Assembly: GCA_023248535.1 (NCBI GenBank)
Contig: JAHFEJ010000016.1
Span: 1-46,991, forward strand
Reading direction: 5' to 3'
DNA length: 46,991 nt
Origin: Nitrospinales bacterium
GTDB taxonomy: Bacteria; Nitrospinota_A; UBA7883; JACRGQ01
Positions 27,872 to 43,815 of this stretch are shown piece after piece. The notes beneath the pieces were generated by a model. That model did not search any database. It saw nothing but the letters and a program-made list of their open reading frames with translations, and was not told the DNA's origin. Within the stretch, counting starts at the first letter, position 1, and every line of letters begins with the position of its first letter. Position numbers and translations under genes: made by a program.

Positions 27872-27947
27872 GGCCCCATCGTCTAGTGGCCTAGGACATC
27901 GCCCTCTCACGGCGCAAACACGGGTTCGACTCCCGTTGGGGCTACCA
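27872..27947 (+). tRNA. tRNA-Glu(CUC)
   Basis: A 76-nt cloverleaf: acceptor strands GGCCCCA and TGGGGCT (G1 pairs by wobble with U72), D-stem GTC/GAC, anticodon loop CTCTCAC with anticodon CTC at 27906-27908, T-loop TTCGACT on a perfect 5-bp stem, discriminator A and an encoded CCA at 27945-27947. The outermost pair of the anticodon stem is mismatched (T-C). It reads GAG codons. Its last 16 bases are copied again at 28127-28142 as part of a longer direct repeat. Confidence 0.95.

Positions 27948-40149: not shown

Positions 40150-40150
<1 letters not shown>
38597..40150 (-). CDS. guaA: GMP synthase (glutamine-hydrolysing)
   Basis: A 517-residue enzyme that converts XMP to GMP with ATP and glutamine. 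The N-terminal class I glutamine amidotransferase has its catalytic Cys87 (GICYGLQ), His174 and Glu176 (FHPEV). The ATP-pyrophosphatase domain has the P-loop SGGVDS (228-233). The C-terminal dimerisation domain ends in the usual PPATIEWE. Length is standard (about 510-525). Its ATG overlaps the guaB stop by one base (TGATG), so translation is coupled to guaB. Confidence 0.98.
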
Positions 40151-41634
<1,484 letters not shown>

Positions 41635-41799
41635 CTAAAAGTTAAGCCGTTAAAAATAAAGGAGTTATTTAAAAATACCTCTTTAATATTTTCACCGTTG
41701 TGCGATTAGTCGCCAATAGTAGCATTAGTGGGGGGGTGAGGCAAGGAATTTAAAGAAGTTATAATTATTAGCCACGAAGTGTGCGGAAAAGGCAGGTCA

Positions 41800-41948
41800 G
41801 CCCGTTGGGCCGATGTTAGGTGGGTACACAATTTATTGTGTACATTGGCGCGACAGCGCCAAGAATAAGAAGTCATGCCATCGTGCCGCGGCATGATGTA
41901 CCCATTAAAATGGGTACCTACCGTTCAGATGCGGCGGTGCTACTGAAC
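41800..41948. repeat. dense array of hairpins, possible MITE or structured RNA
   Basis: Consecutive perfect or near-perfect hairpins lie between the TPR-cyclase stop and guaB: GCCC-GTT-GGGC (41800-41810); GTACACAA with TTGTGTAC (41824-41843, loop 4); TTGGCGC with GCGCCAA (41845-41862, loop 4); TCATGCC with GGCATGA (41873-41896); GTACCCATT with AATGGGTAC (41898-41917); GTTCAG with CTGAAC (41923-41948, spanning the cyclase stop). In addition GGTGGGTAC (41819-41827) pairs with GTACCTACC (41914-41922) with one G-U, closing a cloverleaf-like fold. The rest of the 323-base gap (41617-41799) is AT-rich with no gene seen. Confidence 0.8.
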
Positions 41949-43703
41949 CTTGAGGACGGTGGTGGAGAGGGTGTGCGCGCCGCTGCCCGGCTGCGATTTT
42001 TCCCAGAACACTTCGTGTATCTGGTAGCGGACGCCGACCTTGCCTTTCAGCTCGGACCAGCCGACCTCGGCGTGTTTGAGGTGCGGCGCGTCGCCCAGCA
42101 TCGTCATCACCTTCGCGCTGCAGAACACGCGGTTCTTTTCGCGGAACGCTTCTTTGCTTCCTTGGGCGAATTCAATAAAAGAGTCCTGCATCAGCCCTTC
42201 TATCCGTTTCGCCACGTTCGCCGCGTCGCCGATGCGGTCGTTATCCAGCTCTTTCACGATGACCTGGCCGCAATCGATGCCGATGCGCAAATCGATGCGC
42301 TGCGACTGGTCTTCCAGCGATGCGTTGTGGTGGTCCACCGCCTGCATGAGCGATACCGCCAGGTACATGGCGCTGGCGCAATCGTTGAACGTGAGCATGT
42401 AGCCGTCGCCGGTGCTTTTTTCAAACTGGCAGGCGTGCCGTTTTTTAAGATCGCCCAGCGGCTTGTCCACCACCGACTGCACTTTTTGGAAGTAGTGCAG
42501 CTCGCCGTAGCTGTCGATGAGGTTGGTCGACTTGCAGATGTCGATGAACAGGATGGCCTCGAATTTCTGTTCCTTGATGCCATCGGCCAGCTTTTTATCC
42601 ATCGTCTTGAAGGCCTCTTCGTCCTTGATGGCTTCCATCCGGACGGTCGTTTCAGATGCATCCGGCATTTTGATTTCCCCGGTTTCGGATTTTTTGAGCG
42701 CTTCAAGGTAGCGCATCGCCTCCTCACGCATCCGCTGCGAACCGCCGACGCTGTTTTCGCTCATTTGCACGAAGATATCGAGGTCTTTCACAGCCTTGTC
42801 CCGTTCGCCGGCCAGCATCCGCGCGGTGCTCCGGCTGTAATAGGCGACCGTGAGCGTGCTGTCCAGTTTCAACGCCCGGTTGTAATCGTCAATCGCCTCT
42901 TTGTACCGCTTCAAGGCGAAACAGCTGTTGCCCCGGTTATAGTAGGCCATGGCGTTTTTGGGGAGCAGGCGTATCGCCTCGTCGTAATCCTGTATCGATT
43001 CCTCTTTCAACCCCACGCGGGAGCGGGCGTTGCCGCGGTGGTAGTACGCCCAGGGATACTTCGGTTCCATCGCCACCGCCTTGTCGAGGTCGGCCAACGC
43101 TTCGCGCAGTTTGCCCATGCCGTACAGCAGTACGCCGCGCCGGAAGTAGGCCTTGTGGTTTTTGGGATCCAGCTTTACAGCTTCGGAGAAATCGGCAGCG
43201 GCCTCTTCCTTCCTACCCAGCGCTTCTTTGGCCTTGCCGCTGGCGTACCAGATGCCGGGGTGTTGACGGTGTAGCTTCAGGGCTTGGGCGTAATCTTGCG
43301 CCGCTTCTTCATATTGCTCCATCTTGAAGCGGGCCGAGCCGAGGTTGTAATAGGCCATCGCCATGTCCGGCTTCAGCCGTATCGCCTCGTTGAAATCGGC
43401 CACCGCGTCGGAAAAGCGGCCCAACTGCACCTTCATGTAGCCGCGAGTGCCGAAGGCGCGGGCGTGTGCGGGATCGAGCTTTATCGCTTCGGTGAACTCC
43501 CTGATGGCCTCTTCCCTTTTCATCAGGGCCGCTTTGGCCGCGCCTAGCTGGAACCAGCATTCGGCGTTTTTCGGATCGAGCTTGACGGCCTCTTCAAAAC
43601 AGACGAGCGCTTCCCCCGTCTCTTTTTTATCGAGGCGGGCGATCCCTTCATCCAGCTTTTGCTTTGCTTTTTTGGCGGTTCCTAAAAGATCGAACACTCC
43701 CAT
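41940..43703 (-). CDS. TPR-repeat protein with C-terminal class III adenylate cyclase domain
   Basis: A 587-residue cytoplasmic protein. Residues about 15-315 are eight to nine consecutive TPRs (for example AMAYYNRGNSCFALKRYKEAIDD). The C-terminal 200 residues form a class III cyclase with every key residue: metal-binding Asp388 (LFIDICKST) and Asp433 (STGDGYML), adenine-selecting Lys429 and Asp493, and Asn496 and Arg500. It should make cAMP, controlled by whatever binds the TPRs. The order TPR-cyclase without a membrane anchor differs from the CHASE2 enzyme at 34695. ATG 43703 is preferred over a GTG at 43745 because it starts the soluble domain and has TATAGT 6 nt upstream. It is divergent from the glycan cluster. 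Confidence 0.87.
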   Translation of the reverse strand: MGVFDLLGTAKKAKQKLDEGIARLDKKETGEALVCFEEAVKLDPKNAECWFQLGAAKAALMKREEAIREFTEAIKLDPAHARAFGTRGYMKVQLGRFSDAVADFNEAIRLKPDMAMAYYNLGSARFKMEQYEEAAQDYAQALKLHRQHPGIWYASGKAKEALGRKEEAAADFSEAVKLDPKNHKAYFRRGVLLYGMGKLREALADLDKAVAMEPKYPWAYYHRGNARSRVGLKEESIQDYDEAIRLLPKNAMAYYNRGNSCFALKRYKEAIDDYNRALKLDSTLTVAYYSRSTARMLAGERDKAVKDLDIFVQMSENSVGGSQRMREEAMRYLEALKKSETGEIKMPDASETTVRMEAIKDEEAFKTMDKKLADGIKEQKFEAILFIDICKSTNLIDSYGELHYFQKVQSVVDKPLGDLKKRHACQFEKSTGDGYMLTFNDCASAMYLAVSLMQAVDHHNASLEDQSQRIDLRIGIDCGQVIVKELDNDRIGDAANVAKRIEGLMQDSFIEFAQGSKEAFREKNRVFCSAKVMTMLGDAPHLKHAEVGWSELKGKVGVRYQIHEVFWEKSQPGSGAHTLSTTVLKVQ

Positions 43704-43709
43704 GCCGTG

Positions 43710-43715
43710 ACTATA
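43710..43715 (-). promoter_or_regulatory. -10 hexamer TATAGT of the TPR-cyclase gene
   Basis: TATAGT (five of six) on the complement, 6 nt before the ATG at 43703, with no ribosome-binding site in a normal position. It fits the leaderless pattern seen at other genes here. Confidence 0.4.
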
Positions 43716-43815
43716 CACCTGCGCGGCATAGGCGGGCAATAACACCTGTAGACGGTGGGGTAAAAACGCATATTCCGGTTATAGAAATTTAAAATGATAT
43801 GCTACACTTCCCGCC

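Follow-up and report, generated by a model that had tools for sequence, protein, structure and literature searches.

The closest described systems are dimers of REP sequences and the REP-associated tyrosine transposases (RAYTs) that go with them. A REP of the GTAG superfamily is marked by a GTAG/GTRG tetranucleotide beside a 20-40 bp palindrome; such REPs are present in many copies per genome and are for the most part extragenic. A REPIN is an inverted REP doublet (Bertels and Rainey 2011, PMC3116915), and in the accounts compared here both REPINs and the BIMEs of E. coli consist of two inverted REPs with a spacer, occur singly or in tandem, and are believed to depend for their movement on a RAYT acting in trans. 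In the sections consulted on the GTAG-tagged REP superfamily, head-to-head heterodimers are common, stem-loop spacers are reported and RAYTs are flanked by REPs; one family has a GTGG majority, the stems are mostly 6-13 bp with short loops, and the tags lie outside (Di Nocera et al. 2013, PMC3733652). The two-stem-loop spacers in those sections belong to a CGTC family, and no GTRG dimer whose REPs abut two spacer hairpins is described there. Some E. coli REPs have been described as stabilisers or attenuators at mRNA 3' ends.

The window, a stretch of 46,991 nucleotides from a Nitrospinales bacterium (GCA_023248535.1, contig JAHFEJ010000016.1), carries a dense run of hairpins in the intergenic gap between the stop codon of a TPR-cyclase gene (41940-41942, minus strand) and the start of guaB (41616, minus strand). 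An earlier note, made from the sequence alone, described six stem-loops in this gap that close into a single cloverleaf-like fold. All six are legible in the window sequence, but the sixth covers the cyclase stop, and it is the four hairpins at 41819-41922 that form one unit; the leftmost is a fragment of a neighbouring copy and the sixth lies outside. The features of the locus, listed with the evidence for each, are:

40150-41616, minus strand: guaB, IMP dehydrogenase (TIGR01302, 632.8 bits against a cut-off of 481.5); downstream host gene, outside the element
41796-41816, no strand assigned: truncated neighbouring copy, a remnant of a TCGGCCC-type hairpin 3 (GTCAGCCCGTTGGGCCGATGT), by sequence nearly equal to GTCGGCCCGTTGGGCCGATAT of the copies on contig C125
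41819-41922, no strand assigned: full copy of the four-hairpin element, read as a REP dimer, 104 bp (covariance-model match and BLASTN borders)
41819-41823, plus strand: left GTRG tag, GGTGG (GGTGG at 52 and GGTAG at 17 of 69 REP ends)
41824-41843, no strand assigned: hairpin 1, outer REP palindrome GTACACAATTTATTGTGTAC, 9 bp with a 2-nt loop (four pairs changed on both sides; 99% of cells paired)
41845-41862, no strand assigned: hairpin 2, inner spacer palindrome TTGGCGCGACAGCGCCAA (TTGGCGC-GACA-GCGCCAA; 99.2% of cells paired)
41863-41872, no strand assigned: unpaired variable spacer GAATAAGAAG, the most variable part of the alignment
41873-41896, no strand assigned: hairpin 3, inner spacer palindrome TCATGCC..GGCATGA (alignment and covariation)
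41898-41917, no strand assigned: hairpin 4, outer REP palindrome GTACCCATTAAAATGGGTAC (four pairs changed on both sides; 98.7% of cells paired)
41918-41922, minus strand: right GTRG tag, GGTAG (CTACC on the plus strand; changes at position 4 are independent of the left tag)
41923-41948, no strand assigned: sixth hairpin, GTTCAG..CTGAAC, outside the element, overlapping the TPR-cyclase gene at its 3' end
41940-43745, minus strand: TPR plus adenylate/guanylate cyclase protein (TPR_1, 187 bits; Guanylate_cyc PF00211, 32 bits); host gene

The cyclase gene lies outside the element, its stop 18 bp away. The fold predicted for 41780-41960 has an energy of -72.3 kcal/mol, lower than expected by chance (z = -3.7; one of 200 shuffles did as well). 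Full copies share a common order: GTRG tag, hairpin 1, one base, hairpin 2, a variable spacer of ~10 nt, hairpin 3, one base, hairpin 4 and an inverted tag. Across a 34-copy alignment and the element list, the two REPs are inverted with their tags outside. A stem follows the tag at each of the 69 ends; GTRG was demanded by the search pattern, so that only the G/A split in this count (52 GGTGG, 17 GGTAG) is informative. Most full copies are heterodimers: among 28 classified in the genome, 11 combine GTACACA with GTACCCA and 4 combine GTACACG with GTACCCA. The inner hairpins also vary. In two copies hairpin 2 reads TTGCCGC in place of TTGGCGC, with the opposite arm changed to match, and hairpin 3 is replaced in other copies by TCGGCCC..GGGCCGA; the loop of hairpin 3 in the guaB-site copy is unusually long.

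The earlier note had proposed BLASTN searches against the genome and its relatives, and such a search of the window's own 2.87 Mb genome revealed a dispersed, modular family. It returned 66 matches in both orientations, many of which stop at query positions 40-144, a common core corresponding to the borders 41819-41922. The covariance model, built on the 34-copy alignment, gave 137 strand-hits at ~70 places; these copy numbers are approximate, since one place can give up to two hits with the palindromic model and scoring took in no more than 150 first-look candidates from each genome. Such a number of copies in one genome is as expected of REPs. The repeat unit is ~95 letters long and the copies are clearly related to each other. 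The window copy matched the model (R1) over all of its positions (1-94 of 94) with 88.9 bits and an E-value of 3.8e-16, a score to be read with the window copy itself being among the sequences aligned for the model. Matches were found in eight of the 11 genomes examined from the same family, with dozens of copies in relatives, and in none of the five genomes from other families of the class. One genome of the same family, G009, had neither copies nor a RAYT match. Two genomes, G004 and G006, have RAYTs and no copies recognised by the covariance model; their REPs may be of other kinds.

To see which helices are conserved, we relied on the covariance modelling that the earlier note had also called for, and the four hairpins were found to covary strongly. 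Each is 88-99% paired across the 34 copies (95.8% of cells overall), and 12 pairs, amounting to 70 cells, are changed on both sides. The pairing of hairpin 3 is under-counted here, its TCGGCCC variant being one column off in the MAFFT alignment. None of 500 shuffles matched the paired-cell, changed-cell or covariation score. This control ignores the relatedness of the copies, but a second control, in which the partner columns were slid, allows for it, and there the hairpin covariation signal was lost. These results also bear on the suggestion that the region is a chance structure or a decayed terminator. Its intergenic location is compatible with such an origin, but a repeated family with covariation is not, and the likelihood of this explanation is negligible.

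The 9-bp outer stem that was thought to enclose the inner hairpins behaved differently from the four hairpins. It is present as letters, but the GTAC of both ends is already engaged in hairpins 1 and 4, which leaves GGTGG and CTACC, 5 bp with one G-U. No compensatory change was seen in these 5 bp across the 34 copies, and pair 4 is paired in 22 and broken in 12 of them, with left G/A and right C/T varying independently. The ends are thus two independent inverted GTRG tags and the cloverleaf closure is incidental; for lack of covariation the outer helix was therefore dropped as a conserved structure. The same evidence weighs against a classical MITE, that is, an element with inverted repeats at its ends and a DDE transposase to move it. 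The element is short, non-coding and dispersed, and its ends are inverted, so that the suggestion of a dispersed miniature element was sound. However, of the GGTGGGTAC ends only 5 bp lie outside the end hairpins, the ends do not act as paired terminal repeats of the long MITE type but as GTRG-tagged hairpins, and the transposase flanked by the repeat is an HUH/Y1 enzyme. We consequently regard a MITE as very unlikely and rejected it.

This transposase is one of eight Y1-transposase matches in the window's genome. It is encoded on contig C125 (G000:C125:61010-61498, minus strand) and is a small single-domain protein of 163 aa. It scored 80 bits against NCBIfam REP_Tyr_transpos (NF047646), exactly the cut-off of 80, fell slightly under the gathering cut-off of Pfam Y1_Tnp, and matched the E. 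coli TnpAREP structure 4er8 at 1.2e-5. Its HUH motif is HIH, and Y135 aligns to Y115 of 4er8; H70, H72 and Y135 are invariant across seven proteins of the RAYT family. By its HUH motif, catalytic tyrosine and profile match the protein belongs to the RAYTs. In the material compared (4er8; PMC8266576) it resembles RAYT/TnpAREP in the HUH motif, the aligned catalytic tyrosine, the REP-flanked gene and the small single-domain build, but sequence identity is low; the palindromes of the C125 RAYT are perfect, as in group 3 of the same source. The guaB-type repeat lies on both sides of the gene. The first tag begins a few bases past the RAYT stop, and four tandem copies with a spacing of 102-103 bp lie upstream. 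The C125 RAYT is thus flanked by the same REPs as occur at the guaB site, as in a REPtron. Genomes G001-G003 also carry copies of the repeat, but identity to the C125 RAYT is no more than 50-55% for their best RAYTs; for this reason, that RAYT and REP pair one to one is deduced from the adjacency in the window's genome. The earlier suggestion of an IS200/IS605-type palindromic relic was right in that the linked enzyme is an IS200/IS605-like Y1 transposase; the element is not a relic, however, but an abundant family beside an intact RAYT.

Comparison with sister species showed that the sites of the element differ between them. At the guaB site of G002 and G003 the element is absent from surroundings that are ~90% identical. 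Three further copies, at C26:540, C9:9107 and C81:27728, are missing from the orthologous intergenic gaps of the sister species examined. The window copy lies between genes, as do the copies at the four sites for which sister species were compared. The flanks align at 74-91% and diverge at the junction. An exact empty site with a target duplication was also sought, but the sister-species junctions are too diverged to show one. Outside the tags, a TTCY motif is conserved at -5 to -2, with C at -3 in 43 of 63 unique flanks (p ~9e-12) and T at -4 in 37 of 63. TTCY may serve as a signal for cleavage or targeting, or may just belong to the element itself. The fixed-distance CT cleavage site known from E. 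coli was considered and rejected: CT is not fixed, and the conserved flank is TTCY.

These observations also weigh against the proposal that the array is a structured RNA acting on guaB as a leader, riboswitch or other cis-regulatory RNA. The element does precede guaB and shares its transcript strand. However, it ends ~200 bp short of the guaB start codon, the same element is found in both orientations at dozens of unrelated places, and guaB of the two sister species does without it. In addition, the element had no Rfam match above the gathering score, the sole match in the window being a tRNA at 27872-27944. A role in guaB regulation is extremely unlikely, and the proposal was dropped; its removal clears away a false lead.

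A transcribed RNA element that acts on the neighbouring genes, for instance by stabilising or attenuating the 3' end of the cyclase mRNA, is a different matter, since such a secondary role would be compatible with a REP dimer. The element sits just past the cyclase stop between two same-strand genes, its region folds strongly as RNA, and a place downstream of genes is common to many REPs, which may function as RNA elements, according to the portion of PMC3733652 compared. On the other hand, the T-run is absent, compensatory changes are expected for folded DNA too, and two sister species lack the element between these same genes. We consider such a role unlikely, if conceivable. At the guaB site the copy probably sits as a neutral passenger between its two neighbours, with a slight influence on the cyclase mRNA at its 3' end as a possible candidate function.

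The directly supported parts of our reading are the repeat family, the compensatory change in four hairpins, the RAYT adjacency on C125 and the species-specific sites. Together, family, covariation, RAYT flanking and absence from sister species point with high confidence (probability about 0.9) to a head-to-head REP dimer of the REPIN/BIME type with two spacer hairpins, which a RAYT most likely mobilises in trans while it is folded as single-stranded DNA. By analogy with the published biochemistry of TnpAREP, the outer palindromes would fold when the DNA is single-stranded, for example during replication, and the RAYT would recognise GTRG plus hairpin and cut beside the hairpin via its catalytic tyrosine. 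The cut end would then be joined elsewhere, so that the dimer is copied in trans to intergenic sites, with tandem amplification now and then.

As a REP dimer, the element shares with the GTAG superfamily the GTRG tag outside, the stems, the heterodimers, the structured spacers and the flanking of RAYTs, as far as the compared sections of PMC3733652 go. Hairpin 1 is built like REP SM1 of Stenotrophomonas maltophilia, GGTGGGTGCCGACCGTTGGTCGGCAC (PMC3686654, as excerpted), in which a perfect palindrome, its loop very short, comes after a GGTGG tag, but the palindrome sequence is another one and the host is a gammaproteobacterium. It differs from the REPINs and BIMEs compared in that its spacer holds two more conserved hairpins, whose type varies by copy, and in that its outer palindromes are usually unlike each other. 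The new part, relative to the REP descriptions compared, appears to be a GTRG dimer regularly joined to two abutting, variable inner hairpins. With this family, REP/RAYT biology now reaches a lineage of uncultured bacteria, one genome of which holds several RAYT-repeat pairs.

RAYTs of the genome and its relatives are flanked by hairpin families of their own. Six related RAYT genes were noted in the 2.87 Mb genome, on contigs C91, C17, C47 and C125 (L031, L033, L036, L037 and L101). The RAYTs of C91, C47:39671 and C125 have distinct flanking hairpin families, of the GGTGGCACGG, GTCACAC and GTACACA types, respectively. The C17 RAYT has a GTGCGAC-type dimer upstream, in which the inner hairpins TTGGCGC and TCGGCCC are kept and the outer hairpins are different, and the RAYT of G005 is flanked by a four-hairpin layout of the same build in other letters. 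From these few cases, the outer hairpins would seem to be RAYT-specific and the inner hairpins shared. Outer hairpins that differ between RAYT-flanking families, with some inner hairpins in common, offer a natural series for tests of RAYT recognition. It is conceivable, but we think quite improbable, that the element is a four-module mobile cassette with RAYT-specific outer ends and an inner pool (TTGGCGC, TCATGCC, TCGGCCC) swapped between the REP families of different RAYTs. The same inner hairpins would then be propagated by several RAYTs, and these hairpins may have a role of their own in the host.

Some copies depart from the common layout. In six of them (L003 1844(-), L010 1580(-), L022 263(+), L025 1580(-), L062 1578(+) and L077 721(-)) the tip of an outer hairpin has been replaced by, or has gained, a second palindromic piece (GATGGCCTATAGGCCACATCCGGCGCGGATT...CCGCGCCTCCCG), and the junction with this piece is nearly identical in all six. 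They may form a subfamily whose tip is long and structured, or may carry a nested element. Copies at L002, L004, L005, L007, L015 and L019 lie beside or inside another palindromic repeat, with a left part like GGGATCCAGACATATTTTCAAAGCTCTCTT and a right part like AGAGTATTGATAATATTTCTGGATGCCGG, which suggests that this repeat is a favoured site for the element. Finally, a three-hairpin relative with outer hairpins GTACACAC and GTACAGGT forms a tandem array with a spacing of ~90-93 bp in G010 (C103:4369-4780, L042).
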